From positions 56,727 through 120,726 of IMG/VR virus record IMGVR_UViG_3300025581_000001: a stretch of 64,000 nt of DNA; one strand, given 5' to 3'. The notes beneath the pieces are model-generated. The model ran no database searches and had not been told where the DNA came from. It was given only the letters and a program-made list of their open reading frames with translations. The DNA is from a virus. The translations under genes were made by a program, and so were the position numbers. Position 1 is the first letter of the stretch, and every line of letters begins with the position of its first letter. Shown in pieces: positions 46,731-64,000 of this stretch.

Positions 46731-47144
46731 ATGACCAGAAAAAGAATCATCCTGGTGTTGGCGATAGTGCTGTCGTTTGGACTGGGTTGTGCTAAGGCAC
46801 CACCTACAATTGTTCCGTCAGCACCACCGCCCATTGGCTCGCTCAACTGTGCGGTCGTCGGGCAAGTGGCATGCACGTTTGACGTTGATACTAACGCTAC
46901 TCTTGCGGCTGCGCACGCCATTGTGCTGCGCGTGGTAACCGACAACAATGCTGGGAACTTCGTTCTGACCGCTTCGCAGAAAAGTCTGCTAAACCAGATT
47001 GTCGATGACCTCAACCTTGCTGATGCTATTTTTCAGGCATGGCACAATGCAGGCGGCTCGGGTTCGACCGTTCCAGTGCAGTCAGCGGTAGCGAAGGTGC
47101 AAGCTGACCAGAATGCATTGAATGCAGTAGTCGGAGGCAAGTAA
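46731..47144 (+). CDS. Small lipoprotein, possible spanin-like
   Basis: 137 residues with a lipoprotein signal: Arg/Lys start, hydrophobic core and lipobox FGLGC at Cys20, then a Pro-rich linker and Ala-rich helices. Consensus AAGGAGGAG before ATG 46731. Likely outer- or inner-membrane anchored; in a lysis-gene neighbourhood it may act as an outer-membrane spanin subunit, although the length and missing partner make this uncertain. Last base shared with the next ATG (TAATG). Confidence 0.6.
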   Translation: MTRKRIILVLAIVLSFGLGCAKAPPTIVPSAPPPIGSLNCAVVGQVACTFDVDTNATLAAAHAIVLRVVTDNNAGNFVLTASQKSLLNQIVDDLNLADAIFQAWHNAGGSGSTVPVQSAVAKVQADQNALNAVVGGK

Positions 47145-48590: not shown

Positions 48591-48738
48591 ATCATCAGGA
48601 ACCGACCGAGAGTTAAGGATTGAGGCATTGCGGCAAGCGGTTATATGTAAAGCTCCGATCCCCGATCTGAAAGCAATCGCTGATTGTGCTCAAGTGTTTT
48701 ACGAATTCCTGAGCAATCGGGCAGCAAAGGACAAGTAG
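48580..48738 (+). CDS. 52-residue hypothetical protein
   Basis: Helical peptide starting at ATG 48580 after AAAAGGAGAG; the ribosome site lies inside the previous gene, which supports real translation. Stop overlaps the next GTG (TAGTG). Confidence 0.5.
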   Translation: MANESSGTDRELRIEALRQAVICKAPIPDLKAIADCAQVFYEFLSNRAAKDK

Positions 48739-49799
48739 TGGACGCTAACTTACAGAAGAAGGTCAAGCAGGCACAGCCCAGCAAGGCGAGTGGCAAGCAG
48801 CGCTATGCGCAGGCGACTAAGGCGCTGCATCGCCAGCCGAGCAAGCGCTTCGCCAAGAACGACCCGCGCAGCGAGGAAGAACAGATATTCTTCTCCATAG
48901 CGTGGGACGACGCGTGGCGTCAGTTCCTGGAGCGTGATCCAGACGGCACTTTCAAGTACAAGACAGCGAAGAACCTGACTCATGCGTTGGCGGTAGGCAT
49001 CGACGCTGCGACCAAGATGCAGCGTGGCAACTATTTGTATAAGGCGGTCGGTCCGGCTTCGAACGCCGACAAGACCAAGAAGATTCCCTACCTTGGCGAC
49101 TGGGACATATTGCGCTCGCAGACGTTCCTGGGCGAGATGCGTCACGACAACGCTTTGTTCGGCACTCCTCGCATGAAGGTGATGCGCGAGGCGTTGCGCG
49201 AGCACATCGACGTCACCCATACCGCCAAGGACATGGCTGAGCAGTTGCTGGGCTGGCTGGCGCGAGTGGAGACCTGGACGCGGCAGGTGGATGAGTTTTT
49301 CGAGTACAAGGCATTCGACAAGAAGCTGTCTTTGGAAAATAATGAGAAGCGCTTCAACAGGTACATGGCGGTGCAGACGACATTGCGTGTTTCTACTGAA
49401 GGTTTGGTAGAGAGAATATTGGCTTGCTACGGCGTGGGCAAGGGAGGCATGGACGTGCTGGCCCAGTTGATTGTGGCCAGCAGGCTGCAGGGCGCGGCAG
49501 GCGACCGGGCGCACGAAATGATCTTGCAGGGGCTCAGCGGGGTGGAGACGTTGGATGGCAATGCGACCGGAGGTGGAGTAAATGATCTGCCTGCAGCGGA
49601 AGATGCGCAGCACAATAAGGCGTTGCAATTGATGGTGGCGTCGTTTACCGACAAGGCGATCACCTACAAGATGCCGCACCCCGAGCTGCACATTCCCGGC
49701 GTGCCCGACGTCGACGACCAAGAGTCGCCGCGCCAGCATATCAAGAAGACGGTCGAGGGCATGCTGCCTGCTAACGGCAGTGGGAAGAAGGTGAACTGA
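48738..49799 (+). CDS. 353-residue protein of unknown function
   Basis: Mostly helical, basic N-terminus (~1-50) followed by a globular part with many Arg/Trp residues and a Pro-rich end (HPELHIPGVPDVDDQ). GTG 48738 chosen over earlier in-frame starts because it is stop-coupled. Placement ahead of the fibre-like genes hints at packaging or structure, but no terminase, portal or scaffold motif is visible. Confidence 0.6.
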   Translation: MDANLQKKVKQAQPSKASGKQRYAQATKALHRQPSKRFAKNDPRSEEEQIFFSIAWDDAWRQFLERDPDGTFKYKTAKNLTHALAVGIDAATKMQRGNYLYKAVGPASNADKTKKIPYLGDWDILRSQTFLGEMRHDNALFGTPRMKVMREALREHIDVTHTAKDMAEQLLGWLARVETWTRQVDEFFEYKAFDKKLSLENNEKRFNRYMAVQTTLRVSTEGLVERILACYGVGKGGMDVLAQLIVASRLQGAAGDRAHEMILQGLSGVETLDGNATGGGVNDLPAAEDAQHNKALQLMVASFTDKAITYKMPHPELHIPGVPDVDDQESPRQHIKKTVEGMLPANGSGKKVN

Positions 49800-50016: not shown

Positions 50017-51996
50017 ATGACGAATTGGCGGTCACACAACGGGGCCAAACGCGCTGGATTTCGCGCCACGTTTAGCCACAAACGGCGAACGGCATCACGG
50101 TCGTGGTTAGCGACGTGGCTGCAAAAGCTATCGCCGTGGAGCGCGATTCTATTACTTACCATGCTGGCGACCGGGGCGCTGGCGCAAGGGCCTCCCGTGG
50201 GTTCAACCCCGCCGCCGCAAGCAATGGCTGCATTGTCGCCTGGTGGAATTTGGACGTACTTGAGACTCGACCCCAGCGGCAATCTCTACACTTCTGGTTC
50301 GCCTGCGATGGGGCCTGCGGTGGGAGCGACTCCATCACCTGTGGCATTGGTTGGATTCAATCCGACGACTGGGCGATGGGAGTACCTGACCCTCGACGCC
50401 AGTGGCAACCTAAACGTGACCGGAGGTGGTGGAGGCGGAAGTATGACTTACCCGTCCGGCACTGGCATTCCCGAAGTTACGAGTGGAGCATCTTGGGGAT
50501 CGACGTACAATGCGAGTAATCCGATCCCTACGAACTTCTTAACTCTACCTTCAGCATTGCCACCGAATGGTTCAGCGAGTGGTGATTTGAGTGGGAGCTA
50601 TCCCAGTCCAACCGTGGCTAAGATTAACGGGACTTCATTTCCTACTTCAGCGGCAGTGGTTGGTAGCGATGGCAGTGCTAAACCTGTGGCAGCTACAGTG
50701 CATGCTCTGTCTTTGATTCCACAGTGCATATCAGCTTCGGGCTCGGGCTCAGCATATACGTGCTCAACTTCCCCGACGTTTGTTCCCGCCGAAGGTGACT
50801 ACATTTGGTTCAAGGCAGATCTTGCAAGTACTGGCACTGCGACCCTGAAGGTGAACGGACAAGCAGGCACGCCCAATATCCACAAGGTTGGTGGGACGGT
50901 AAACATCGTTGCTAACGATCTGCGGGCTTTGCAGTGGACACTCATGCTATTTGACGGCAGCGCTTGGGACATGCAAGGGCAGCTTGGAAATGCTCCGCAA
51001 GCCGCACTTGGATATACGCCAGAAGACGTCGCCAACAAAGATACGACGACCACGTTGGGAACATCCGACACGAAGTATCCAAGTCAGAATGCAGCCAAGA
51101 CATATGTTGATACGTCGGTCAGTAATGCCATTGCGGGAGTTAATCCGGCGGTGGCGGTTCTTTTAGCTACCACGGCGGCTGGCGATACGAGTGGGTTGAC
51201 CTATGTGAGCGGTGTGTTCACGGGTTCAGTGAACACTCCCATTACCATTGACGGAACTGTGCTCACTGCCGTGGGCCAGCGTGTGCTGGTCAAGAATGAC
51301 ACGCAGAGTCCGTCTGGCGCGTTCAACGGCGTCTATTCCATGACTCAAGTCCAGACTGTTGCGCTTCCTCCTGTTCTAACTCGCGCTACGGACTACAACG
51401 CCCCAAGCGATATCAACAGCACTGGAGCGATCCCGGTACAAAGTGGGACGGTCAATACTACTACAAGCTGGCTGCTGACTTCTCAGGTTGTAACGGTAGG
51501 GACTAGTCCACTGACTTACGTGAAGTTCAGCCTTGCCCCAAGCACGATTCTTTATACAACGTCTGCTCCGACAGCGAACGGTGTTCTGTACGGTGCGGGA
51601 ACGCAGATCCCCAGCGTGGTGACTCCCCCCACCGTCAATGGACGCTACTCGGTAGGTTACACGGTCACAGGATCGGTAGCAGTTGCACCAACGGCTGTTC
51701 TCAGCACTATTCTAATTGCTAGCGGTGCTCAAGCGCTAGGCACTCCTACCGTCACGACGGGTACTTGTTCATCGGCTGTTACCGCAACCGCCACAGGCAC
51801 CTTGACTTCAGATGTAATCATTGCTACGCCTGCGGTTGACCCGACAGGCGTTACTGGCTACGCGCCTTCGGCCACAGGCAGTCTCTACATTCAAGCCTAC
51901 CCAACAACGGATACGGCGAACTTCAAGGTGTGCAATAACACTAGCGGTAGTCTCACACCATCGGCCATGACGATGAACTGGAGGGTGGTGAGATGA
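50017..51996 (+). CDS. Tail-fibre-like protein with N-terminal export/membrane segment
   Basis: 659 residues from ATG 50017, which has GAGGTGGG upstream; ATG 49981 overlapping the previous stop is the alternative. A long Arg-rich leader precedes a hydrophobic helix ending TGALAQ (~40-57), as in a signal peptide. The rest is beta-rich fibre-like sequence with a Gly run (~131-137), a SGDLSGSYPSPTV repeat, and the fibre motif ALGYTPEDVANK...YPSQNAAKTYVD (~325-365) known from phage tail fibres. Fibre identity is good; export of a virion fibre would be unusual. Confidence 0.7.
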   Translation: MTNWRSHNGAKRAGFRATFSHKRRTASRSWLATWLQKLSPWSAILLLTMLATGALAQGPPVGSTPPPQAMAALSPGGIWTYLRLDPSGNLYTSGSPAMGPAVGATPSPVALVGFNPTTGRWEYLTLDASGNLNVTGGGGGGSMTYPSGTGIPEVTSGASWGSTYNASNPIPTNFLTLPSALPPNGSASGDLSGSYPSPTVAKINGTSFPTSAAVVGSDGSAKPVAATVHALSLIPQCISASGSGSAYTCSTSPTFVPAEGDYIWFKADLASTGTATLKVNGQAGTPNIHKVGGTVNIVANDLRALQWTLMLFDGSAWDMQGQLGNAPQAALGYTPEDVANKDTTTTLGTSDTKYPSQNAAKTYVDTSVSNAIAGVNPAVAVLLATTAAGDTSGLTYVSGVFTGSVNTPITIDGTVLTAVGQRVLVKNDTQSPSGAFNGVYSMTQVQTVALPPVLTRATDYNAPSDINSTGAIPVQSGTVNTTTSWLLTSQVVTVGTSPLTYVKFSLAPSTILYTTSAPTANGVLYGAGTQIPSVVTPPTVNGRYSVGYTVTGSVAVAPTAVLSTILIASGAQALGTPTVTTGTCSSAVTATATGTLTSDVIIATPAVDPTGVTGYAPSATGSLYIQAYPTTDTANFKVCNNTSGSLTPSAMTMNWRVVR

Positions 51997-53459
51997 GGAA
52001 GCTTCTTGCGCTATTACTTATCCTTTCGGCTTCTTGCTGGGCGCAGCAGGTTATGCCAACTATGGGATCAAATTGGCAAGGAGCAGCAGCTATCGGCACG
52101 TTTACCGTAGTACAGACTGGACATTGCTCCCCTGGTAGCGCATCTAATACCTGCAACATCACACTTTCGCAAGCCTTGGTTGCGGGGAATCTTTATGGTT
52201 GGCTGCTTTACAGCAATAGCATAACCGTGCCGCTTCCGCTGTTGACCAGCACCAATGCCGGCGGAACTCTTGTAAAGCCTGTAAGTTGTGCAGTGGGTGC
52301 TGAGGTCGGCCCTTATCAGCCTTCCTGTGGATACATACTTCCAAGCACGAGCACAGGAACGAGCGGCACGACACTTACCACGACCATGACGCAGAACTGC
52401 GGAAGCAGTCAGTGTCAGATTTACTTTGCAGAACTATACCCCAGTGCGGCTCCTAGCAATGTCGCTCTGGATGGTGTTGGTGCTCTCTACAACGCTGCAA
52501 GCACCAGTATCGTCGGGCCATCATTTACATTTTCCGGCACTGGCGACGCAGTATTTCAAGGTGAAGCGACGAGTGGGACGGGGCCAAGTTCGGTTACTTC
52601 TCCTTATAATACGAACGCCTATTTAGCAGCGCGAGAAGGATTGTCGGTGGCCATTCCGAGCAACGGGACAACGCCGACGTGGACGATTGGCAGTTCTACT
52701 CCTGCTACTGCTATAGCAATGGCGTTTGGTTGGAATACGACCGCTTGCGTGGAAAACAGCTTTCAGGATTTCGAGGGCGGGGTTAGCGGAAACTCAGTCA
52801 CTGTGCCGCTGCTTCATGCTAGTCAGCATGGTTGGAATGGTGGTGTTTGGACGATTACCGGAGCACCAAAGTACAGTTCAACGCAAGCTCACGGCTTAAC
52901 TAATGCCACCCGCTTATGTGGGGATGGTGTGACTTATTCTAGCGGAGCGGGCACGTTGGGCCTTAGCGTAACAGGTACGGGGAGTGCCGTTGCCGATGGT
53001 CTTACCTACAGTTTCGGAATATCCATGATCCCCTCAATGACCTTGGGATTCTGGTATTACAACTCGCTTGCCGCTAACGATACCTCCCTCATTGATTGCG
53101 GGTCTATAACTGCCGGGGCCGGTGGACAAGATTACTCTTCAGCGAACTGCTATGGCGACGGAGCCACCCGATATGTAGTGATTGAAACCAACGGCGGCGG
53201 GGGTTCTCACGTCAACATGCCGAGCGTGGGCTGGTACTTCATCGAGGTTGACTACAATGCAGGAGGAACGCACGCGGTCAAGCTTTATGATTCGACCCAC
53301 AGTTTAATCGGAACATCAACCCACGCTGCAACTGGAACCTATTATCCGACCCTTTTCAACATAGGGCATAACAACGCTTCATCTATTACGAATGGAGCCG
53401 TAGTTTACTGGGACAGTGCAACCTTGTCCCTTACGGGGCAGACTCCGATTGGATGGTGA
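51993..53459 (+). CDS. Exported protein with LamG-like C-terminal domain
   Basis: 488 residues. Signal peptide of ~17 residues ending SCWAQ. Residues ~30-245 are a Ser/Thr-rich beta domain with Cys pairs; residues ~255-488 resemble a concanavalin/LamG jelly-roll (FQDFEGGVSGN..., GFWYYNS, HAVKLYDSTHSL, ALAVYWDSATL-type end). Likely surface-acting or sugar-binding. ATGA coupling to the fibre-like gene upstream suggests a joint role. Confidence 0.6.
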   Translation: MRKLLALLLILSASCWAQQVMPTMGSNWQGAAAIGTFTVVQTGHCSPGSASNTCNITLSQALVAGNLYGWLLYSNSITVPLPLLTSTNAGGTLVKPVSCAVGAEVGPYQPSCGYILPSTSTGTSGTTLTTTMTQNCGSSQCQIYFAELYPSAAPSNVALDGVGALYNAASTSIVGPSFTFSGTGDAVFQGEATSGTGPSSVTSPYNTNAYLAAREGLSVAIPSNGTTPTWTIGSSTPATAIAMAFGWNTTACVENSFQDFEGGVSGNSVTVPLLHASQHGWNGGVWTITGAPKYSSTQAHGLTNATRLCGDGVTYSSGAGTLGLSVTGTGSAVADGLTYSFGISMIPSMTLGFWYYNSLAANDTSLIDCGSITAGAGGQDYSSANCYGDGATRYVVIETNGGGGSHVNMPSVGWYFIEVDYNAGGTHAVKLYDSTHSLIGTSTHAATGTYYPTLFNIGHNNASSITNGAVVYWDSATLSLTGQTPIGW

Positions 53460-53465
53460 TCTGTT

Positions 53466-53684
53466 GTGAGGTTAATTTTTAGCGGCACTAAAAACATTAC
53501 CGAGGACGGGAAGAAAGTGATCGAGATGATTGCACGAGGCGGGATGAACTCGGAGATTGCCGAGGAGTTTAGTACGACGGAACAAGTTGTTAAGAACGCG
53601 GTAGGGAAACTGTGTGATCGCTTCGGAGCGGTTAATCGAGCGAATTTGGTTGCACGCGCTTATAAGTGGGGGATTCTGAAATGA
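53466..53684 (+). CDS. Solo LuxR-type HTH regulator
   Basis: 72 residues that are almost only a GerE/LuxR HTH: EDGKKVIEMIARGGMNSEIAEEF-TTEQVVKNAVGKLCDRFG-VNRANLVARA. No sensor domain. GTG start; stop overlaps the next ATG (ATGA). A DNA-binding regulator set within an operon of exported proteins; may control these genes or host surface genes. Confidence 0.75.
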   Translation: MRLIFSGTKNITEDGKKVIEMIARGGMNSEIAEEFSTTEQVVKNAVGKLCDRFGAVNRANLVARAYKWGILK

Positions 53685-54019
53685 AACACTTACTCTTGAT
53701 TCTTGCGCTTCTAGTTTCCACGGCAGCATTTGCTGCGCCTCCGGGACAGATCCACGGTCTTATGTGGTCGTGGGTCCTATCGCCTAGCCAGGGGGTCATC
53801 TTACAAGACCTTTACTGTGGCACGGCTGCTGGGGGAGAGAACTACTCGACGCCGGTGGCTACGCTGTCAGCCACGGCAACATCATATCTCTATCAAGGCG
53901 GAGTCGCAGGCACGAAGTATTATTGCACCGTTACCGCTTCCAACACATTTTGGGAATCTGTGCCGAGCAACGAGGCGGCGGCTATTTATCCTTGTTCCCA
54001 CGGGAAACCTTGTAGGTAA
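53681..54019 (+). CDS. Exported fibronectin III-like protein
   Basis: 112 residues: signal peptide to ~AFA (residue 18), then one fibronectin III-like domain (LMWSWVLSPSQGV...YCGTAAGGENYSTPVA...TKYYCTVTAS...ESVPSNEA). This layout is frequent in acidobacterial exported proteins. Paralogue of the protein at 58929. Co-translated with the LuxR-type gene. Confidence 0.65.
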   Translation: MKHLLLILALLVSTAAFAAPPGQIHGLMWSWVLSPSQGVILQDLYCGTAAGGENYSTPVATLSATATSYLYQGGVAGTKYYCTVTASNTFWESVPSNEAAAIYPCSHGKPCR

Positions 54020-54025
54020 TCCACA

Positions 54026-55504
54026 ATGAGCATGAAACACTTACTCATATTTTGTGTATTGCTGGTTGCTTCTTACGTGGGCGCTCAAGCTGTGACTCCG
54101 GGCACGCTCTGCACTGCGAAATGGCATCCATACGGAGGGGCAATTAGTTCCGGCTCGAAGACATTTACTTCGAGTTACGCTGATTTCACAAAGGCTGGCG
54201 TTAAACTGCATCTCTTGGTTTCTGGTGCTGGCGCGTCGGGCGTGGACTTAATTACGACTTGCAGTACCCAGCGCGACGGAACTTGTATAACCAGCGATGC
54301 AGCTAGCACGCCCGTCACCAACGCCGCTTTCGTGTTCGGCGCAAGCGTAGACGATACTGTTGCTCTTAGGAAGGTTATCGCGGCAGGTGGTCGTATTGTC
54401 TTACCTGCTGGCGTTTGTCCTATCTCGTCTACGCTAACCATCAATTTGCCCGACGATAGCAGCGTTGGAATGGTAATCGAAGGCGGCGGAAATTTTGCCA
54501 GTACGACTCTCCTGTGGATAGGCGCAGCGGGTACAAGCGGAGCTACAGGCCCAAACATTATTGCGGTGGGGGACGGCTTGGCGGTCGGCCCTGGCCCCGT
54601 AAAGGTGGACGGAGTTCAGTTCACTTCTCTTGATGCGGCGCACAAGGCTGGCGGAGGATTGCGGTGGTTGAACGGCGGACTAGACGAAGTTACCAACAGC
54701 CTATTTGGTCTTTTGTCTGATGGTGTGAGTGCCAGCAATAACATGAAGTCGCGCATCGACTTTAACCATTTTGCTAGAACCACGCGAGATGCGATTGCTT
54801 TCGACGCAGGGCAAGGTGGCCCAGTCAATTCGACTTCTGTAATTTTCAATGAGTTCTATTACTGTGGGCGCTACTGCTTCGAGAACACCAGCGGTGGAAG
54901 TGGCGGGTCGAATGTCAACTGGGTCGCTTTCAATGATTTTGAAGGACAAATTGCCGATAAAACCTTGGGAATGTTTTACTCCATCGGTGCGCGAGAAGTA
55001 TATGCATTCAACCGCCACGAGGATGGTGTCCATTCTGCACCCACATATCGCACTGCAACCTTTGGAGCGCAGGCGCGAGTTCTAGGGAACGCCTTCAATC
55101 AAATCCCTACTGCAGACTACACGATAGAGTTCCTCGTTGGTGGTGAGAGCCACCTCAGCGCGAACACCTACAACGGCAGTAGCAGTCTCGGGGTAGCCGA
55201 ATTTGATGCTGGAGGGGCTTTTGGTTCTACCAGCTCCAGTGAGGAGTTGGCATACGGAGCAGTTGGAGGAACCTTCGGCCCATATGTTCAATTTGCTGTG
55301 AGTGGGAGGGGTTTAGTTGCGGGGAACTTAACGAAGGCCGTGGCTAATGGGGCATTGCCCCCAACACTAGGGGATGCTGGAATCTCGGCGGCAAATGTGG
55401 TTACTACCTGCGCCGGATCAAATGCGGTGGGTCACGCAACTTGCTGGAAGACCGGAACTACTGTTGGCTATGTGGCCCCGGACGGAACATGCGTATGCAA
55501 CTGA
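54026..55504 (+). CDS. Exported beta-helix, tail-spike-like protein
   Basis: 492 residues. Signal peptide ~1-21 (ends VGAQ). Residues ~100-400 show the pectate-lyase-like right-handed beta-helix pattern used by phage spikes and polysaccharide depolymerases: DDTVALRKVIAAGG-IVLPAG, then repeated short strands with Asn ladders. The C-terminus ends GYVAPDGTCVCN. Could degrade or bind surface polysaccharide. Its last ~44 bases are repeated at 55938. Confidence 0.65.
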   Translation: MSMKHLLIFCVLLVASYVGAQAVTPGTLCTAKWHPYGGAISSGSKTFTSSYADFTKAGVKLHLLVSGAGASGVDLITTCSTQRDGTCITSDAASTPVTNAAFVFGASVDDTVALRKVIAAGGRIVLPAGVCPISSTLTINLPDDSSVGMVIEGGGNFASTTLLWIGAAGTSGATGPNIIAVGDGLAVGPGPVKVDGVQFTSLDAAHKAGGGLRWLNGGLDEVTNSLFGLLSDGVSASNNMKSRIDFNHFARTTRDAIAFDAGQGGPVNSTSVIFNEFYYCGRYCFENTSGGSGGSNVNWVAFNDFEGQIADKTLGMFYSIGAREVYAFNRHEDGVHSAPTYRTATFGAQARVLGNAFNQIPTADYTIEFLVGGESHLSANTYNGSSSLGVAEFDAGGAFGSTSSSEELAYGAVGGTFGPYVQFAVSGRGLVAGNLTKAVANGALPPTLGDAGISAANVVTTCAGSNAVGHATCWKTGTTVGYVAPDGTCVCN

Positions 55505-55981
55505 TGCGCACGGGAATTCGAACAGTATGCGATTTTCTCTGGATTCACCGAGATCGCCTTCGCAGCGTGGCGGTCGATGAACTTCCGGATTCACTGGCTC
55601 AACGCCGTCTCTATCTCATCGGCAGCGGCGTTCCATGGTCAGCAGCGCTCCTTTGTCCGTGTGGTTGCGGCGAGGTGATCCAGCTCAGTCTGTTGCCCGA
55701 CGACTCACCAAGTTGGACGGTCAGCTTTGATCGCGACGGGTTGCCAACACTTTCTCCTTCGGTTTGGCGGACGAAGGGATGCCGTTCGCATTTCTTTTTG
55801 CGGCGTGGGGCGATCGTATGGCACCGGGGCAGAGAGGTCGTTCATCGGCACGCGCGTTAAGCATTTGTGCTGAGGCGCGCTGGTTCAGGCTTGGAACCCG
55901 GTCCCGGCCGCGGTGGCCGCGCTTTGCTGCCAGAGGTGTTGGCTATGTGGCCCCGGACGGAACATGCACCTGCAACTGATG
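55463..55981 (+). repeat. Direct repeat flanking the DUF6527-like gene
   Basis: A 44-base segment at 55463-55506 (coding the end of the spike-like gene) recurs at 55938-55981 with the first 30 bases identical, then a 3-base change, then 11 identical bases. The copies are 475 bases apart and enclose the DUF6527-like gene. The second copy still encodes a VGYVAPDGTC-CN ending, out of context, indicating a duplicated 3' end around an inserted cassette. Confidence 0.75.
55504..55860 (+). CDS. DUF6527-like protein
   Basis: 118 residues. LCPCGCGEVIQLSLL, then SW-V--D--GLPTLSPSVWRTKGCRSHFFLRRGAIVWHRG fits the DUF6527 pattern (PCGCG...W...P.L.PSv....CrSHf.ir.G.v.W). I recall this family near bacterial ubiquitin-like conjugation genes; none are present here. 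The Cys/His set suggests zinc binding. ATG 55504 shares one base with the upstream stop; ATG 55495 is an alternative. Lies in a repeat-flanked cassette. The 156 bases after it hold only the second repeat and GC-rich sequence. Confidence 0.65.
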   Translation: MRTGIRTVCDFLWIHRDRLRSVAVDELPDSLAQRRLYLIGSGVPWSAALLCPCGCGEVIQLSLLPDDSPSWTVSFDRDGLPTLSPSVWRTKGCRSHFFLRRGAIVWHRGREVVHRHAR

Positions 55982-56016
55982 AGCATGGGTAGGAAGAGCA
56001 TGACAAAGGAGTATAT

Positions 56017-58917
56017 ATGAAAATCTTTTTCAAGATCATCGCAGCCTTGGCGTTGTTGTCTCTGCCACTATGGGCGCAGATCACGAATGTCCAGTGCGGC
56101 AATGACGTCACTAATACATGGACCGCCTGCCCAGCCAATCCCCCGTATCCGCCGACTACGACAGTCGGAGGCATCGACACGACCCAGCCCAGCACTGGCG
56201 CATTTGTAGCCTTCAAGTGGCAGACTCCAACTTGCTCCTCGACGGTCTTGGTGTGGATTCGTGACATCAACCACGTTTCCGAGCGTTATTTTCAAGGCGA
56301 TGCTGGGGGAAACGACGGCTGTGCTCCCGGTTATGCGAAGAACCACAGCGTTCGCGCCGATCATTTGGTTCCTTCTTATGATGGACTGACGGTGCTTGGT
56401 AATCAGCTAAAACCGTTCAGTCTTAGTCAGCACGGTACGTTCTTCTATGTCGCATCTCAAGACCAGAATCACACTGGGGCGAATGATCTGTGGATTACTC
56501 TTGGTGGGCCGTGTATGGCTGATACGATGCACGGTTGCGCTCCCTATGGCGTGGCGCTCCCGATTCCCGATACCACCCAAAGTCCTGTGTGGGGTCTGTG
56601 GATTTACGGGGCACAGAACGTCTATCAGGGCGACGATCTGTGGCTGGCTCTATTTAATGTGCTCGCTCAAGGGCCGGGAGCAGGCTCTGTTGTCATGCCG
56701 TGGAGCAGTGTTCAGTGGACACGATTGACGATGCCGGACGGCTCGGCCTGTATGAGCAATTGTGCCGACGTTCAGGATGGGAGGGTTTTCAATCTCGACC
56801 TTCAGCTTGTCGATTCGCAAGCGTTCTCGGATTCTCCGGGTTCAGACTATACAACCTACATGATTGATAGTGCAAAGCACTGGGACTGGTCTTATGCTGG
56901 TAACTTCAGGGCGCTGACAGGTACTCAAGCCCTTCGCGTGAGATTGAACTGTAACGGCCACGGTTCGCAAGCAGCTTGCGGTCAGGCGGCTCCGACGCCG
57001 CTTGGCAGCTATAAGATGCAAGCGCAGTTTCAGCCCTTGGCTGGACGCGATACCGGAGCAGTAGTAGGACAGCCGATCACGCTGAGCTATACGTTCACGG
57101 TGAGTCCGATGCCGACGCCGTTTGTGGCTAATCCACCAGCGTGTCTTGCAGCAGGAAACTGTCCGCCTGTACCTTGTGAATTGAGCGGAAGTTGCGGTGG
57201 CTATAACTACGAAGACGAGATTAAGAATTGGGGAGTAATCAACTGCACTGGTGGCCCTCGCACATGGATGAGCCGCCTTAGTCGAGAATACACTTACTCG
57301 ATTGGCAACATGGATGTCAACGCTTATGGTGCGAACACTTCAACGGAGCTTGCTGGACAGTGGAACTACGACAACACGCGGGCTTATTTGGATGCAGCGG
57401 ATCGTGCTGACCTGAAAGGATGGGCTGTGCCAGCAGGAGCATCGCTGCAACCTAACGGCCAGCCTTATCCAAGCGCCGGAGCCTACTTCCGTCACTGCGC
57501 GTCGATATCAGGACAGGCGTACCGAGATTTCTACGCCGGAGTTGGAGCGGCAGGAACATTGTGGCCGGGCGGAACGCTGCGCGAATGGAACATTTTTCCG
57601 AACGGCGCGGCTATGCTTTCGGAGCGGACGGGCAGCATCGAGGCCAAGCAAGCGGTGCTTAACATGGGGTCGATGGGTGGAACTGGCGGGACGAAGCAAG
57701 GCAGCACAATCTATCGGTACTTCCCTCTTACAGCATATGACCAAGCACGGCAAACACCTTATCAGATGAATGCTATTCTAGCCGCTTGGCAAATCAACAA
57801 CTCAATTTCTGCAATGGATAGGTATCAGTTAAAGCGATTAGCCACGACGTTGATGGGAGGATTTGACCAGACTATCAACAATGACCCTTATGGTCGCAAC
57901 TACGGCAGCATCCAGCATCCTCAGACATGGCCTTTCGGTATGATAAACAGGAATTACATGTTGGGTGTTGGTATGGAAGCCCTGGCTGAATACTACGATT
58001 GGCAAGGTGTTGTAGGAGAACCGCAAGACCCACGCATACCTGTAGCGATCAAGGCCATGCTAGATTATATGTGGAACCGCATGTGGGCAGTGAATTCCAG
58101 TGGCTATCATGCTTTCTACTATGACGGTTACGATCTTCCACACGGCCCCAGCATTGACAACGATGGTTTTACTTTGTTGAACAACATTGTGTGTTCATCC
58201 TTCGCGTGGTACTGGGCTAAGTCAGGTGACGACACCTATCGAACACGGGGTGACGACTGCTGGCAGAACGGAGTTGGACAGTCTGCTCAAGGACAGATTT
58301 ACTTCACTGGTAAAGACTTCGGGCAGATGAACAAAGCGGCTGCGGATTACATCGGTTACCGTTCCAAAGCTGGATTCCTGTCTTCTACTTTTCCTGCAAG
58401 CAATCCTCCGGTGCCGGGTGGAGTCCCGGATACGGTTCCACCTGTTTCGCGTCCGATGGTGATGACGAATACGACGACGACGGATTCACCTGTAGATCAA
58501 TTTACTGGAGTGAAACCAGTAACAGCCATCACTAGCTCATCGGTGAAGCTAACATGGAGCACCTACAAGCAACTGCAAAGAGTTGAAGTGGACTACGGTT
58601 CAACTGCCAACTACGGTTCAGTCGCTCTTGGAGTTAGCACTTCATGCACTGCGATCAATGAGTGCCACATAGGTTGCAGCACGGTGGTTGGCTCAATCGG
58701 GCAGTCGATCTGCAACGAGTCCTATTGGAACACGGTAACGATCAGCGGGTTGCTACCAAGTAGCACCTATCATTTCCGTGTGCTTGGCAAGGACATGTTT
58801 GGGAACATAGCCGTATCGAACACATTTCCCGGAACAACCGGGTCGAACAAGGACTTCACATTTGTGACGGCAGCGGGTGGCTCCAAGCCTCCAGCTCCGC
58901 AACTGACGGTGCAATAA
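56017..58917 (+). CDS. Large exported multi-domain protein with fibronectin III-like end
   Basis: 966 residues; signal peptide ending LPLWAQ (~21). Residues ~25-370 are beta-rich with Cys pairs; ~395-800 form a helical, Trp/Tyr-rich region (repeated NDPYGRNYG, YYDWQG, YMWNRMW) resembling alpha/alpha toroids of polysaccharide lyases, though no catalytic set could be fixed; ~850-950 is a fibronectin III/purple-acid-phosphatase-N-like domain (KLTWSTYKQLQRVEVDYGSTANYG). AAAGGAG precedes the ATG. Possible depolymerase or surface protein. Confidence 0.6.
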   Translation: MKIFFKIIAALALLSLPLWAQITNVQCGNDVTNTWTACPANPPYPPTTTVGGIDTTQPSTGAFVAFKWQTPTCSSTVLVWIRDINHVSERYFQGDAGGNDGCAPGYAKNHSVRADHLVPSYDGLTVLGNQLKPFSLSQHGTFFYVASQDQNHTGANDLWITLGGPCMADTMHGCAPYGVALPIPDTTQSPVWGLWIYGAQNVYQGDDLWLALFNVLAQGPGAGSVVMPWSSVQWTRLTMPDGSACMSNCADVQDGRVFNLDLQLVDSQAFSDSPGSDYTTYMIDSAKHWDWSYAGNFRALTGTQALRVRLNCNGHGSQAACGQAAPTPLGSYKMQAQFQPLAGRDTGAVVGQPITLSYTFTVSPMPTPFVANPPACLAAGNCPPVPCELSGSCGGYNYEDEIKNWGVINCTGGPRTWMSRLSREYTYSIGNMDVNAYGANTSTELAGQWNYDNTRAYLDAADRADLKGWAVPAGASLQPNGQPYPSAGAYFRHCASISGQAYRDFYAGVGAAGTLWPGGTLREWNIFPNGAAMLSERTGSIEAKQAVLNMGSMGGTGGTKQGSTIYRYFPLTAYDQARQTPYQMNAILAAWQINNSISAMDRYQLKRLATTLMGGFDQTINNDPYGRNYGSIQHPQTWPFGMINRNYMLGVGMEALAEYYDWQGVVGEPQDPRIPVAIKAMLDYMWNRMWAVNSSGYHAFYYDGYDLPHGPSIDNDGFTLLNNIVCSSFAWYWAKSGDDTYRTRGDDCWQNGVGQSAQGQIYFTGKDFGQMNKAAADYIGYRSKAGFLSSTFPASNPPVPGGVPDTVPPVSRPMVMTNTTTTDSPVDQFTGVKPVTAITSSSVKLTWSTYKQLQRVEVDYGSTANYGSVALGVSTSCTAINECHIGCSTVVGSIGQSICNESYWNTVTISGLLPSSTYHFRVLGKDMFGNIAVSNTFPGTTGSNKDFTFVTAAGGSKPPAPQLTVQ

Positions 58918-58928
58918 GGAGAATCATT

Positions 58929-59324
58929 ATGAAAAAGATTGGTTTGCTTCTCGTGCTGGTATTCACGATGTCGGCGATCACCGTTTCGCAAGAGCGAGCG
59001 ATAACCCAAGGGCCAGTTAAGTCATCCCCTGCAACGCCCGGACAGATCCAAGGCCCCAAGTTGTCATGGTCGGACACACAGAGCTGCGATAGCTTTAATA
59101 TCTACCGGGGAACAGCACCGGGCGGCGAAGGGACGGTGCCGTATATGTCGTTTCCGGGAACCATCCTTAGCTACCAGGACAGTGCTGTAACTTGTACAAG
59201 TCCGCCGACGACTTATTACTATGTGGCAACGTGTGTGGCTGGTGGCAACGAATCCCCTGTCTCAAATGAGGGCAGCAAGCAGGTTGTCTGTCCCACACCT
59301 CCGAAGTTGAACCCGGTGCAGTAG
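58929..59324 (+). CDS. Exported fibronectin III-like protein, paralogue
   Basis: 131 residues, signal peptide ~1-20 (ends VSQ), then one fibronectin III-like domain (LSWSDTQSCDSFNIYRGTAPGGEG...TYYYVATCVAGG-ESPVSNEG). Similar to the protein at 53681. AAGGAGAATC before the ATG. Directly upstream of the HAD-domain gene. Confidence 0.65.
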   Translation: MKKIGLLLVLVFTMSAITVSQERAITQGPVKSSPATPGQIQGPKLSWSDTQSCDSFNIYRGTAPGGEGTVPYMSFPGTILSYQDSAVTCTSPPTTYYYVATCVAGGNESPVSNEGSKQVVCPTPPKLNPVQ

Positions 59325-59327
59325 GCG

Positions 59328-61388
59328 ATGAATCTTGCAAGCGCAGTCGCGATAGTCGCCGGTGGGCCGGGCTCAGGTCGCAAGCCAGAGTTCGGTTCAC
59401 CGCAGTCTAAGAAGGCTGCGTGGCTCGATAAGCGACAGACGTCGATCTTCGGCCCCAAGCATGCCGAGGAGATACAGAAGAACGCCAAGCTGAAGAAGGA
59501 TCTGGATGCGTTCGGCACTGCCACTGGAGTGACCAAGGCGTGGGACACGCGAGGGCGCGGTCGGACTGGTGAGTTAGACTCACTGCGCGACTTGCACGAT
59601 GGCATTAAACAAATGCTGCTAAGTGGCAACCATGAAGAGATGTTTCAGGCGCAGCGTTCCAAGATGGCAGCATTGGTAGACGGTGCGAGAAAAGTTGCGT
59701 CCGATGCGCCGATGATTAAGATGGCGAGTCAGCAGATGGCGCGAGCCAATAGCTTCGCTCGTCAGGGCGACCACAAAATGGCGCTGGCCTATCAGGACTC
59801 TGCGCTGACGGCGGTGCACCACTGGTTGAATGGGCGACAAGGAACCCTGAACGCGAGTAGTGGTTGGATAGGCTTCGACTTCGACGGCACGCTGGCCGAT
59901 GCGGTGATTCCGTTCGATCCGGCCAAGACCGGCAGGCCGATCAAGAAGATGCTCGACCTGCTCAAGGCGTACCTGAAGCAGGGCACTGAGGTGAGGATAT
60001 TCTCTGCTCGCGTGGGCAATGACCCTGTGGGCCGCGATGCGATAGACAAGTGGTGTTTGAAGTACGTCGGGCGCAAGCTGCCCATCACCGACAAGAAAGA
60101 CCACCTGATGATGAAGCTTTATGATGACAAGGCGGTGAACCCCAAGGACTTGAGTGCGGGCGGGCCGGGCAGTGGTAGGCATAAGGAAGTATGGGATATG
60201 ACTCGTTCGGAGTTTGCTGGAACAAAAGCATTTGGACATCCGATGGGTACCAAAGGTGGGCAGTCAATTGCGGAGACATTTCAGAAAGTGGGGGATGCGA
60301 CTCAGGGGCGTGATAATGCAATACGAAATGCTCTTGCAAAGTTCCCCGATGGAACTGAGATAAAAGGTTGGAAGAAAATCACAACCGGGGGCGATGTATT
60401 TTGGCAGAAGGGTAGTAGAGTGGTGTTCAATTTACATAAAGAGATTGGAACCGATGCTGCTCATCAAGCGGTTCTGAAAGTTAAAGACCTCAAAGCCTAC
60501 GGCACATCCGAAGGCGTGACCAAGTCGTGGGACATCCGTGGCCGCTCGCGAGCACGCGTAGGTGAACTGCTGAAGCAGGGTGGATGGAAGACCAAGTACG
60601 CGTCGACGGAGTGGGCGCAATTCCACCGGCCCGGACAGCCGGGGGTGCTGATAGTGAATCGCTACTTCGACAGGTGGCAGCACAAGGACGACGCAGGCAA
60701 GCGACTGGCGTCGGGTGATAGCTTGGCGTCGCTGGCCGACTATATGGAGAAGCTGCACGGCAAGCAGATGCAAGCTTCCGGTACAAGTGAAGGTGCGAAG
60801 AAGGCGTGGGACACCCGAGGACGTGGCAAGAACACCATGCCAGAGCGCGAGCAGAAAGTGCGGGCCAAGAAGACAGTGCTGCTGCCGTCGGGTGCTATGG
60901 TTTACGTGGGCCGACCGCACGCACCGCAGGACAGGCCACTGACGCCGCCCAAGCAGGGCGTCTACCCGGTCGGCAAGCACGGAGGCTACGGTGGCGTGAA
61001 AGTTTCCAAGGGGCGGCTGTGGCCGGAGCAGGCATACTGGCGCAATGGAGTGCCCGATGCTGGTTTGCATCCTTTGAAGGACAAGTTTACTGAAGCCAAC
61101 CGGCAGTTGAATCCGAAGGACTACACTATCGAGAAGCGCAATGCATACTTGAGTGATCAGTCGACGCAAGTCTACGCAGCGCTCGACCATGCAGGCGATA
61201 GAGGCGCGACTGTGTTCGTCGAGCCTGGCAGGGTTGTCGAGTTCAATCACGACTCGGCAGGCCGCTTGCAGTACGGGCGCAAGCTGCTGCCGTCGCTGGG
61301 CGACACGCAGGTGGTGCGCTTCAACAGCGGACGGGCGCAGTCGACGTTCCTGCGGCAGCGATACGGAATTGAAAAGAAGGAGGAGTAG
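59328..61388 (+). CDS. Modular phage protein with HAD domain and repeated linear motifs
   Basis: 686 residues. A HAD-type phosphatase domain starts at GFDFDGTLAD (~182-191) and runs to ~270. Two GGPGSGR motifs (residues 12-18, 278-284) and three copies of a 17-residue motif G-TxxG-xKxWDxRGR (residues 63-79, 392-408, 485-501) mark module borders. The last ~180 residues form another globular domain with a GDRGATVFVEPG-VV turn. The motifs look like processing or assembly tags of phage head proteins, which is inference. First ATG after the fibronectin gene; ends near a membrane gene. Confidence 0.65.
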   Translation: MNLASAVAIVAGGPGSGRKPEFGSPQSKKAAWLDKRQTSIFGPKHAEEIQKNAKLKKDLDAFGTATGVTKAWDTRGRGRTGELDSLRDLHDGIKQMLLSGNHEEMFQAQRSKMAALVDGARKVASDAPMIKMASQQMARANSFARQGDHKMALAYQDSALTAVHHWLNGRQGTLNASSGWIGFDFDGTLADAVIPFDPAKTGRPIKKMLDLLKAYLKQGTEVRIFSARVGNDPVGRDAIDKWCLKYVGRKLPITDKKDHLMMKLYDDKAVNPKDLSAGGPGSGRHKEVWDMTRSEFAGTKAFGHPMGTKGGQSIAETFQKVGDATQGRDNAIRNALAKFPDGTEIKGWKKITTGGDVFWQKGSRVVFNLHKEIGTDAAHQAVLKVKDLKAYGTSEGVTKSWDIRGRSRARVGELLKQGGWKTKYASTEWAQFHRPGQPGVLIVNRYFDRWQHKDDAGKRLASGDSLASLADYMEKLHGKQMQASGTSEGAKKAWDTRGRGKNTMPEREQKVRAKKTVLLPSGAMVYVGRPHAPQDRPLTPPKQGVYPVGKHGGYGGVKVSKGRLWPEQAYWRNGVPDAGLHPLKDKFTEANRQLNPKDYTIEKRNAYLSDQSTQVYAALDHAGDRGATVFVEPGRVVEFNHDSAGRLQYGRKLLPSLGDTQVVRFNSGRAQSTFLRQRYGIEKKEE

Positions 61389-61435
61389 CTGGTGGTAGCG
61401 AACGTAGAAAATGAATCCTTGGAAGGGGATACTCG

Positions 61436-61804
61436 ATGACCAACAGCGCTACCAACAGCGCACCAGGCAGCAACGGCAATGGCAATATTAAAGGCTTCTG
61501 GCGTGATCTTAGTATGCGCGAGGTTTTTCTATTGTTCCTTGCTCTTGGCCCGTCGCTTTTATTTATTGGTGGAGCTACGTGGCAGTTGCACTCGATTCAG
61601 ACCAACTATGTTACAAAGACCGAATTGCTACTTATGAGCTTAAATAGCCCGCAGGGGGTCACAGCAGAGCAGATTAAGGAACTGACCGATCAGCTTAAGT
61701 CGACATCGCAAGAGGTAGAAGCGTTACGCCAGATTGAAGAAAAGCATACGGCAGAACTGCAAAGGCAGAACGATGCATTACTCAGACAGGAGGGAAGGCG
61801 ATGA
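61436..61804 (+). CDS. Membrane-anchored coiled-coil protein
   Basis: 122 residues: polar Asn/Gly-rich N-terminus, one transmembrane helix (~29-48), then a coiled coil (~75-120). Topology resembles spanin inner subunits or other envelope-spanning phage proteins; no further evidence. GGAAGGGG precedes the ATG; ATGA overlap with the next gene. Confidence 0.6.
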   Translation: MTNSATNSAPGSNGNGNIKGFWRDLSMREVFLLFLALGPSLLFIGGATWQLHSIQTNYVTKTELLLMSLNSPQGVTAEQIKELTDQLKSTSQEVEALRQIEEKHTAELQRQNDALLRQEGRR

Positions 61805-62325
61805 TACATAGATTGGTCGTAGTGGCTATGTTGTGTTTGCCGTTGTTGGCCAGCGATAAGATTAACGACAAGGACAAGATCACGAAGCTGATAGCTTTTA
61901 GGAAGGATTTTGTCGCTAACATCGTTGCTCTACAGGGAGCGGAGACCGAATTGTATGAGCAGCGAGTTCCTGCTGTTCAGAAGGCAAGCGGCGCGTGCTG
62001 GGTCTGCCTGCCACCTTATCTTGCTACAGGGAAAGACGAGAAAGGAGTGTTGGTTTGTAAGGCTGGCGCGATTAGCCCATCAGAACATAAGAGTCTGTCA
62101 TTGCTCATTTCACAGCTGCTTATCACTGAGCGATCTATGCAAGATGCGATCAATGCTGGCAATGCGAAGGTCGCGGTTACCAGGATAGATGTCAGCGACG
62201 TAGCTATGCAGCAGTTGCTCGACAGAATTAAGCTGGTCAAGAATTCGACCAGTAGAGCACAGTTACAGTCTTTAGCGTTGCCAGCAAAGACCACGCTGGT
62301 AACGGCGAAGGCGATTTTGCAGTAA
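61801..62325 (+). CDS. Periplasmic helical protein
   Basis: 174 residues: signal peptide ~1-17, helical body with one CWVC pair (~63-66) and a later Cys near residue 83. Coupled to the coiled-coil membrane protein by ATGA, so the two may form an envelope complex. Function unknown. Confidence 0.6.
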   Translation: MIHRLVVVAMLCLPLLASDKINDKDKITKLIAFRKDFVANIVALQGAETELYEQRVPAVQKASGACWVCLPPYLATGKDEKGVLVCKAGAISPSEHKSLSLLISQLLITERSMQDAINAGNAKVAVTRIDVSDVAMQQLLDRIKLVKNSTSRAQLQSLALPAKTTLVTAKAILQ

Positions 62326-62347
62326 GACAAATGAAAAAGGAGACAAA

Positions 62348-62944
62348 ATGAAATTACGAATCCTGATTGCAGCAGTTATCTTGACCGCCGTGTGCGCGGC
62401 CCAAACCTTAACGCCGGTGGAGCCACCCAAGTTCGAGTTCTTTGCTGGCTATAGTCGGTATATGCCGAGCGTTCATGTCACTGACATGTCATCGCTCCAG
62501 AGCACCGTTATCGGTGGTCTGAATGGTGGCAACGCCAGTCTGGACTTTAACCTGGGGCAGTCGCGCACCTTCGGGATCAAGGCTGACATCAGTGGCTACA
62601 CTACGTCGCACACCTTCCAAGGTATCAGTGGGAGTCCGAACACGTATATGTTCCTCGTCGGCCCGCAGATCAAGAAGCATTCTGGGCGGTTCAACCCGTT
62701 CGCTGAAGCACTGTTTGGTGTAGCTCGCCAGAACTCAGGCTTCACATTCAAAGGTGGATCGGATGCATTTGCTTTGAAATTCGGTGGCGGCATCGACTGG
62801 CAGGTAGCGCACCACTTCTTCATTCGACCTATTCAGGTTGATGGCGTGCTTACTACGTTTGGGAGTGGGACGGCAAACAGTTTCAGCTTCCACAACCGCG
62901 CGATCAGCGCTTCTGTTGGAGCTGGGCTGGGATTCACATTCTGA
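62348..62944 (+). CDS. Outer-membrane beta-barrel protein, host-like
   Basis: 198 residues. Signal peptide ending VCAAQ (~20). Eight amphipathic strands can be traced: FEFFAGYSRY, GGNASLDFNL, FGIKADISGY, YMFLVGPQIK, FNPFAEALFGV, FALKFGGGIDW, FFIRPIQVDGV and a last strand ending in Phe (GAGLGFTF), the outer-membrane insertion signal. This matches the small beta-barrel (PF13505-type) proteins abundant in Acidobacteriota. A phage-coded outer-membrane protein could mask receptors or remodel the host surface. AAAGGAGAC before the ATG. Confidence 0.8.
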   Translation: MKLRILIAAVILTAVCAAQTLTPVEPPKFEFFAGYSRYMPSVHVTDMSSLQSTVIGGLNGGNASLDFNLGQSRTFGIKADISGYTTSHTFQGISGSPNTYMFLVGPQIKKHSGRFNPFAEALFGVARQNSGFTFKGGSDAFALKFGGGIDWQVAHHFFIRPIQVDGVLTTFGSGTANSFSFHNRAISASVGAGLGFTF

Positions 62945-62956
62945 AAGGTGGCTCCA

Positions 62957-63538
62957 ATGAGTCCAATTGCATACGAGCCGTCGCGGACTGAGCATCCCCA
63001 GCGGGTGCTCAGTATCCCGTCGCCTTTGGCGGGGACGTCGTGGGCAGGCAACGAAAGCATCATCGCTGACCTGCTCGACCGCTTTCACGTGGGCCGCAAG
63101 GTCGCATTGGAGTTCGGTGTTGAATTTGGTTACTCGGCGGTTGCGCTGTCGAACTTCTTCGACAAGGTGATTGGAGTCGACACCTTCCTTGGCGACGAGC
63201 ATTCGAACTTTCGGCCCGACTACTCTGATGACGCACGTCGTCTGTGTGCTCCCTATGACAACATCGAGCTGGTGCAGTCATCGTGGGAGGACTGGACGGC
63301 CAATGCAAGCCCGAAAGTAAAGTACGACTTTATCCACATCGACATCGTGCACAACTACCAGCCGACTTTCGACTGTGGGTTGTGGGCGGTCAAGCACGCG
63401 CCGGTCGTCATCTTTCATGACACCCTGAGCTTTCAAGACGTGATGCAGGCCTGTGAAGACTTGGCGGTGCAGTACGAGATGGACTTCTACAACTACGAGC
63501 AGAGCTATGGACTGGGGATTCTGGTTGGTGGCGTATGA
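62957..63538 (+). CDS. Class I SAM-dependent methyltransferase
   Basis: 193 residues. Motif I VALEFGVEFGYSAVAL (~51-66) with FGVxFG in the glycine-loop place, acidic strand VIGVDTF (~72-78), and DFIHIDIVHNY (~123-133) as in the Methyltransf_24 group that acts on small molecules or sugars. Its stop overlaps the glycosyltransferase ATG, so both may modify a surface glycan or a glycosylated protein. Not a DNA methylase: no NPPY/DPPY motif. Confidence 0.65.
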   Translation: MSPIAYEPSRTEHPQRVLSIPSPLAGTSWAGNESIIADLLDRFHVGRKVALEFGVEFGYSAVALSNFFDKVIGVDTFLGDEHSNFRPDYSDDARRLCAPYDNIELVQSSWEDWTANASPKVKYDFIHIDIVHNYQPTFDCGLWAVKHAPVVIFHDTLSFQDVMQACEDLAVQYEMDFYNYEQSYGLGILVGGV

Positions 63539-64000
63539 GCTTCAGCGTCGTAATCTCGGCTGGCAACCCCAGCAACTTGGTGGCCTGCGTTAGAGCAGTT
63601 ATGGATTGCGAACCTGCTCTCGATCCGCAGAAGATCATCGCGGTGCATGACGGTGCGAGGGTGGGGGCTGAAGCTATGCTTCCGCCAGAGGTCACGTGGC
63701 TGGACGCCCCGCTGCCCTTCATCTTCGCACGCAATCTGAACATTGGAATCCGGGCGTGCAGCGACGATGTTGTCATTATGGAGGACGATGGGCTCCTGCA
63801 GACCCCGTCGGGGCTGTCCCTTCTTTCAAGGCACAGCGCCGGATATGGACTGCTGGCCAGCTCTACGAACTACGGGTGCAATCAGCGGCAGTACAGGCAG
63901 CCTGGCGGCGCGATAAGGGAAGAGCCGGGGATGGTGATATGGGTCTGTATCTACGTCCCACGCTCTACGATTGACCTGATTGGGCTGATGGACGAGCGTT
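63535..64000 (+). CDS. Glycosyltransferase family 2-like, 3' end outside window
   Basis: The first 155 residues of a GT-A-type glycosyltransferase: VVISAGN strand, FARNLNIGI (donor-site helix) and VVIMEDDGLL with the acidic DxD-type motif near residue 80. No stop before base 64000. ATG 63535 overlaps the methyltransferase stop (ATGA). Substrate unknown; may glycosylate virion proteins, DNA or host surface. Confidence 0.75.
   Translation, partial: MSFSVVISAGNPSNLVACVRAVMDCEPALDPQKIIAVHDGARVGAEAMLPPEVTWLDAPLPFIFARNLNIGIRACSDDVVIMEDDGLLQTPSGLSLLSRHSAGYGLLASSTNYGCNQRQYRQPGGAIREEPGMVIWVCIYVPRSTIDLIGLMDER

Follow-up and report, generated by a model that had tools for sequence, protein, structure and literature searches.

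Predicted Sec-exported fibre, spike and barrel proteins in a late, hypervariable gene cassette of a tailed phage

A cluster of predicted Sec signal peptides

We analysed a 64,000-nt stretch of viral DNA (the window, bases 56,727-120,726 of the 120,726-bp IMG/VR record IMGVR_UViG_3300025581_000001) in which a row of genes codes for proteins with predicted Sec signal peptides (SPs). Coordinates are positions in the window unless stated, and genes are named by their first nucleotide. The assembly of tailed phages is taught as purely cytoplasmic. The original prediction had counted at least seven Sec-type SP proteins between 50.0 and 62.9 kb, described them as exported and host-like, and proposed either a programme to remodel the infected cell surface or an unusual route of display or release for virion parts. 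The open reading frames (ORFs) and N-termini that it listed are all present, and the set turned out to be wider, with an extra, likely lipoprotein at 46731. The genes of the cluster are the following.

46731..47144, plus strand: likely lipoprotein, SP with lipobox LGC, first of the exported cluster (SP scan)
48684..49799, plus strand: conserved phage gene directly upstream of the cassette (relatives in the related contigs G004 and G007)
50017..51996, plus strand: tail-fibre protein, SP with a long n-region and cleavage between ALA and Q (motifs, similarity, SP scan)
51993..53459, plus strand: exported Cys-rich protein (SP), no fold assigned, 10 Cys in the mature part
53681..54019, plus strand: small exported fibronectin III (FN3)-like module (SP, homology to 58929)
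54026..55504, plus strand: exported tailspike-like protein, Cys-rich, with a pectin-lyase-type (beta-helix) N-part; start at 54026 or 54032 (SP, phrog_32881)
56017..58917, plus strand: large exported protein whose mature part has 22 Cys; putatively a glycan-active enzyme, with an FN3 domain at the C-terminus (SP, PF16656)
58929..59324, plus strand: small exported FN3-like module, paralogue of 53681 (SP, homology)
61436..61804, plus strand: membrane-anchored coiled-coil protein, no cleaved SP (hydrophobic aa 26-46, then a coiled-coil-like stretch)
61801..62325, plus strand: exported protein (SP), no function assigned
62348..62944, plus strand: exported Lom-like moron, an outer-membrane beta-barrel from a host family (SP, host homologues)

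SPs were predicted on all ORFs of the 120.7-kb contig with a heuristic set of rules covering the n-, h- and c-regions and the ribosome-binding site. Every high-scoring SP with a good ribosome-binding site fell between 46.7 and 62.9 kb of the window. In a strict count limited to genes of at least 100 aa, SPs were found in 8 of the 13 plus-strand genes of that interval versus 0 of 70 elsewhere (Fisher p = 3.3e-8), the 8 including 61436, which is better read as a membrane anchor, and missing 53681 and 54026. Chance hydrophobic N-termini, considered as a source of the calls, were ruled out by two controls. Only 3 of 3272 internal methionines passed the SP threshold; among control phages, T7 gave zero calls, and lambda and P22 gave Lom, Rz and RexB, all known to be exported or in a membrane, and two further calls that were weak or spurious, with no fibre or spike called. 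The predicted SPs display the n-h-c structure, with a small residue at -1 and in most cases a Q after it. For 50017, where a signal-like helix had been noted, the n-region is long, yet the h-region is good and the cleavage site (ALA, then Q) is of the same kind.

Identity of the cassette proteins

Pfam and PHROGs gave no match for most of the SP proteins. 50017 bears the motifs YVD, GDLSGSYPSPTV and LGYTP of a tailed-phage fibre-type sequence, is locally similar to phage tail fibres and matches phrog_30390; its N-domain is homologous to that of an SP-bearing 1070-aa fibre in G004. Part of 54026 matches the pectin-lyase PHROG phrog_32881 (E 4.5e-8), in agreement with the beta-helix spike expected there; the protein has no direct relative in IMG/VR. 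The small modules 53681 and 58929 share homology with one another, and an SP protein of G007 is a homologue of both (E about 1e-6 to 4e-6). At the C-terminus of 56017 (aa 835-926), PF16656 scored above its cut-off and fn3 below, which gives Pfam support to the fibronectin III domain that had been proposed. The remainder of 56017 is putatively a glycan-active enzyme, an idea that comes from inspection of the sequence, since the AlphaFold2 (AF2) model of a 431-aa middle piece, run without an alignment, was uninformative (pLDDT 35). The LamG-like domain proposed for 51993 was not supported: neither Pfam nor PHROGs gave a match for that protein. No informative Pfam family was found for the likely lipoprotein at 46731 either; it is possibly lysis-related.

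How host-like these proteins are differs from one to the next. The description is apt for 62348, which has homologues in 75 of 297 Acidobacteriota genomes and, judged by them, is host-derived. Three of the homologues match PF13505 (OMP_b-brl) above cut-off, so that the outer-membrane barrel is upheld through its host relatives, 62348 itself having no direct Pfam match. With its SP, its barrel (via these homologues) and its late phage locus, 62348 answers to a Lom-like moron. The description does not suit 50017, a canonical phage fibre apart from its SP. Nor does it suit 56017, for which no direct relative was found in IMG/VR, GTDB genomes or INPHARED and whose match in the 297 Acidobacteriota genomes is limited to the FN3 part.

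The phage, its host and its relatives

The first and last 99 bases of the 120,726-bp record are identical, and terminal repeats of 123 and 102 bases are found in two related contigs; the genome is therefore probably complete, and circularly permuted or circular. Base composition is uniform. The contig carries a tailed-phage core (terminase, portal, major capsid protein (MCP), a tape-measure-sized protein and a baseplate-like protein of 1277 aa) together with replication and recombination genes (helicases, primase, DNA polymerase, a UvsX-like recombinase, clamp loader, SbcCD and thymidylate synthase). The MCP was named from its position and from the genes that accompany it in related contigs and chromosomes; no PHROG match underlies the name, and the protein has no match among annotated phages; a TerL search returned distant contigs only. 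When the MCP was aligned against GTDB genomes, 214 relatives were retrieved, and the best 80 comprised 79 with Acidobacteriota names (Terriglobus, Granulicella, Edaphobacter and others) and one labelled Bacillota. These relatives support an Acidobacteriota host, as had been assumed when related acidobacterial phages were named for comparison.

A few oddities lie outside the cassette. The C-terminal stretch of an 803-aa tail-module protein (8961-11372) looks, by eye and with no family match, of the Hint/intein type (CIVFGEKV ... LLHNS). The motif GTSEGxxKxWDxRGRG occurs nine times in proteins of the contig, at most three times per protein, and is rare in the relatives; its carriers are 59328-61388 and several proteins of the contig's left part (L001). 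GGPGSG motifs are common in the relatives as well. Across the joined contig ends, a methyltransferase-like gene and glycosyltransferase-like genes come after the exported cassette (62948-64000 and L001, 272-958).

The MCP search retrieved 25 related IMG/VR contigs, 41-75% identical. Ten MCP-related contigs (G numbers) were read whole; some are partial genomes and G008 duplicates part of G003. The core genes are collinear across these relatives, and the exported proteins of the window have almost no sequence relatives among them. Behind SbcCD, in the late arc, G004, G005, G006 and G007 have large SP-bearing proteins in tandem, and G007 has three further SP proteins directly behind the baseplate gene, i.e. 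at the tail-fibre position. In G004 and G007 the relative of 48684 precedes the SP cassette, as in the window. Weak domain matches in the relatives' SP proteins were to glycosidase, PKD, InlB-repeat, chitobiase-C-terminal and beta-propeller families. The synteny comparison that had been suggested thus places the SP-bearing proteins of the relatives, which are fibre-, spike- or glycanase-like, mostly in the same late arc, with hypervariable sequences, and the late position and hypervariability of the cassette are both supported.

In three homologous pairs, both members have an SP whose residues have diverged: 50017 and the 1070-aa fibre of G004, G005_71420 and G006_21144, and G005_72186 and G006_22414. 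Sequence turnover with the signal properties kept is what selection for export predicts. At the usual fibre position, G000, G002, G003, G007 and G010 have a large protein devoid of SP; in G004, G005 and G006 the only large separate fibre genes at the tail-module position code for SP-bearing proteins. A complementarity between SP-less tail-module fibres and SP cassettes (G004-G006 versus G002/G003) was considered and dropped, G000 and G007 having both.

Cysteine content

Among the proteins of fibre-like composition in these phages, those with an SP had a median Cys content of 2.11% (n = 30) versus 0.55% for the others (n = 47; p = 2.4e-8). The coarser comparison with all other proteins gave a weak difference (1.80% with SP versus 1.20%, p = 0.06). 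The enrichment is compatible with folding in a compartment that is oxidising. It falls short of proving export, because the virion of phage Milano is also Cys-rich.

Cultured phages with signal peptides on fibres and spikes

Tunturi 1-5 infect Tunturiibacter (PMC11924767), and we scanned proteins of these phages for SPs. In Tunturi 1, SPs were predicted on gp12, gp14 (annotated as tail spike), gp16 and gp17, and the N-terminus of gp13 is SP-like; these genes sit inside the structural module. In Tunturi 4, SPs were predicted on gp114 and on gp111 (annotated as tail fiber), the latter when it is read from an in-frame start further upstream; the N-terminus of gp113 is similar. The annotations of the SP-bearing proteins of the two phages include tail spike, tail fibre and virion structural protein. 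Both phages are unrelated to the window phage. Tunturi 4 gp114 is homologous to Tunturi 1 gp17, the two phages being otherwise dissimilar (PMC11924767), and an IMG/VR relative of this family, L228, has the SP too. Tunturi 1, L228, L229 and G006 have endolysin-like genes in the vicinity of their SP cassettes, which fits expression close to lysis.

The annotated start of Tunturi 4 gp111 (L219, 33077-36172; PP885687, 80433-83171) was apparently placed too far downstream. Reading from a TTG that lies upstream in the same frame lengthens the protein by about 119 residues, which begin with an SP resembling that of gp113.

A chromosomal element with an SP-prefixed fibre

Chromosomes of Terriglobales contain a phage-derived element, read in Terriglobus roseus, strain KBS 146 and Edaphobacter modestus. 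There the MCP relative lies in a cluster of about 14 kb, with relatives of the TerL, portal and baseplate genes of the window phage and, inside the cluster, a gene for a long fibre. These loci (L212-L217; in Terriglobus roseus, NC_018014, about 153.9-170 kb) are mostly one per genome. The elements of KBS 146 and E. modestus share their chromosomal flanks, which suggests vertical inheritance and an element resembling a gene transfer agent (GTA). A 2018 survey reported no prophage in KBS 146 (PMC5900883).

The fibre was present in all 14 MCP-bearing genomes tested, with one fibre place each, and in 21 of 199 sampled Acidobacteriota. Of the 35 distinct chromosomal fibres, all 35 have an SP ahead of the mature N-domain, that of L177 being doubtful. 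The fibres have YVD and GDTMTGPL motifs, and that of KBS 146 ends in an SGNH esterase. An AF2 model built with 11 aligned sequences gave a beta-sandwich over roughly the first 100 residues past the cleavage site (pLDDT about 88), the remainder being unreliable. With this mature N-domain, Foldseek retrieved from the PDB the neck fibre of cyanophage A-1(L) as best match (E 7.8e-4), followed by the XM1 neck and the DEV collar, with the Ur-lambda tail tip fifth; matches in BFVD include phage tail fibres and tail proteins. On this model, the predicted SP of the chromosomal fibre family is fused directly before a domain of the virion-docking type.

Export and docking versus other explanations

The clustering of the SPs, their persistence through sequence turnover and the cysteine enrichment make Sec export of the cassette proteins well supported as a prediction; actual export, its timing and docking on virions are what we infer. 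With about even confidence, we read the locus as a late, Sec-exported, hypervariable cassette of fibre, spike and glycan-active proteins whose fibre and spike members dock on virions at lysis ('export, then dock'). It would combine an SP-prefixed tail fibre and a beta-helix tailspike-like protein with a large, Cys-rich protein that is putatively glycan-active, small FN3 modules and the host-derived barrel. Synthesis of these proteins would precede lysis; they would then cross the inner membrane and probably acquire disulfide bonds in the periplasm. The exported fibres would wait there or at the surface. Once the envelope breaks, fibres and spikes would most likely meet finished virions and dock through the N-terminal domain exposed by signal peptidase; the barrel and the small modules would act on the envelope of the infected cell. 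That Acidobacteriota tailed phages and the Terriglobales element in general export receptor-binding fibres via Sec, with disulfide-dependent folding beyond the cytoplasm and attachment to virions delayed until lysis, is a wider proposal, which we put forward tentatively.

Several points weigh against docking. Export takes a protein out of the cytoplasm, where tails are built. Most SP proteins of the window, 51993, 54026 and 56017 among them, show no recognisable docking domain. The docking fold comes from the model of the chromosomal fibre, not from window proteins, and the Foldseek E-values in the PDB are modest even for the best match. Tunturi 3, which has the same host strain as Tunturi 1, has fibres without SP, so that predicted SPs on fibres and spikes are a common but optional trait. 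Cys-rich virions can form without export, as in phage Milano (PMC10811340), and a 978-aa fibre-like protein of G001 (oriented 94656-97592, L074-L078 region) has 22 Cys and no SP. A virion proteome exists for none of these phages, and the Tunturi paper contains none (PMC11924767).

It is possible, if less so than export followed by docking, that the exported fibres, spikes and enzymes never join a virion but stay on display at the surface of the infected cell or are shed from it, and there would block superinfection, serve as receptor decoys or strip exopolysaccharide for the spread of progeny, having been recruited from tail-fibre and host genes. The same export evidence serves this explanation, which also agrees with the host outer-membrane family of 62348, with the glycosidase-like, PKD, InlB-repeat and chitobiase-C-terminal modules of the relatives and with the SP-less large protein already at the usual fibre position in G000, G002, G003, G007 and G010. 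It is at odds with the docking-type domain directly behind the cleavage site of the chromosomal fibre, with the presence of SP genes inside the structural gene sets of Tunturi 1 and the chromosomal element, and with G004, G005 and G006, where all the large separate fibre genes at the tail-module position are SP-bearing. As to the two options of the original prediction, that of virion parts taking an unusual route fits better than remodelling, although for the fibre subset only, because of the docking-type fold behind the SP in the related chromosomal fibre and of the SPs on tail-module spikes and fibres of cultured phages; remodelling of the cell surface has the 62348 barrel in its favour and no positive evidence beyond it.

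Two further explanations dispense with export or with function. Tail fibres normally assemble in the cytoplasm and the n-region of 50017 is atypically long, so the hydrophobic N-termini could be retained as assembly or membrane-contact anchors of ordinary tail proteins. This is improbable in view of the canonical n-h-c structure with its small -1 residue, mostly followed by Q, of SP residues that diverge while the signal properties stay, of the roughly fourfold Cys content of SP-bearing members versus SP-less fibre-like proteins, and of the sharing of the feature by unrelated folds (barrel, helix, FN3). Very unlikely indeed is the idea that the region stems from misassembly of host DNA, or that it is cargo without a role, made up of host secretome genes acquired recently. 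The barrel does belong to a host family, but the contig ends overlap by exactly 99 bp, base composition is uniform, 48684 also stands upstream of the cassettes of G004 and G007, 50017 resembles phage tail fibres, and the same kind of cassette is found in relatives and in cultured phages; recurrence in independent genomes has already largely refuted the idea.

Comparison with known systems

The tail, neck and collar fibres of A-1(L), XM1, DEV and Ur-lambda resemble the chromosomal fibre in the predicted fold of its mature N-terminal domain, and tailed-phage fibres at large share the YVD and GDTMTGPL-type motifs and modular C-terminal enzymes such as the SGNH esterase; what differs here is the Sec SP directly before the domain and the Cys-richness of the SP-bearing class. 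The lambda morons Lom and Bor provide a parallel for 62348, a phage-encoded, SP-bearing outer-membrane barrel beside fibre genes (Lom was found by the same scan), except that 62348 comes from an Acidobacteriota host family and that the fibres are here predicted to be exported too. Sec-dependent endolysins, signal-arrest-release (SAR) endolysins and spanins are likewise late phage proteins that use the host Sec system, and SP cassettes are often near endolysin genes, but the proteins predicted here are adhesins, spikes and glycan-active proteins rather than peptidoglycan hydrolases or membrane fusogens. Xanthomonas phage PBR31 encodes near its lysis genes a 215-aa tail-associated-type esterase with an N-terminal SP, gp40 (PMC10975493). 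The likeness is an SP on an enzyme resembling tail-associated hydrolases; gp40 is however a single enzyme, and no SP-bearing fibre or spike is reported there (PMC10975493). In Agrobacterium phage Milano, a disulfide network spans sheath, baseplate and receptor-binding proteins (PMC10811340): structural and receptor-binding proteins are Cys-rich in both cases, but here the enrichment tracks the SP-bearing members.

Implications for Acidobacteriota phages

At least three Acidobacteriota phage lineages that are unrelated to one another, as well as the chromosomal element, have fibres or spikes with persistent predicted Sec signals. In the open-access literature, we found no report of Sec SPs on tailed-phage fibres, the phage SPs named there being on endolysins and one esterase. 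To our knowledge, no two-compartment assembly pathway is known for tailed phages, and assembly by export followed by docking, if shown, would be categorically new. The cultured phages Tunturi 1 and Tunturi 4, with their cultured hosts, make the question testable at once. For annotation, the start codons of SP-bearing fibres may be called too far downstream, as with Tunturi 4 gp111, and the receptor-binding proteins of soil phages may pass for secreted proteins of their hosts. One of two things would follow from the finding: assembly uses a second compartment, or adhesins and glycanases secreted by phages form a common class that has been overlooked in a phylum ranking among the most abundant in soil.

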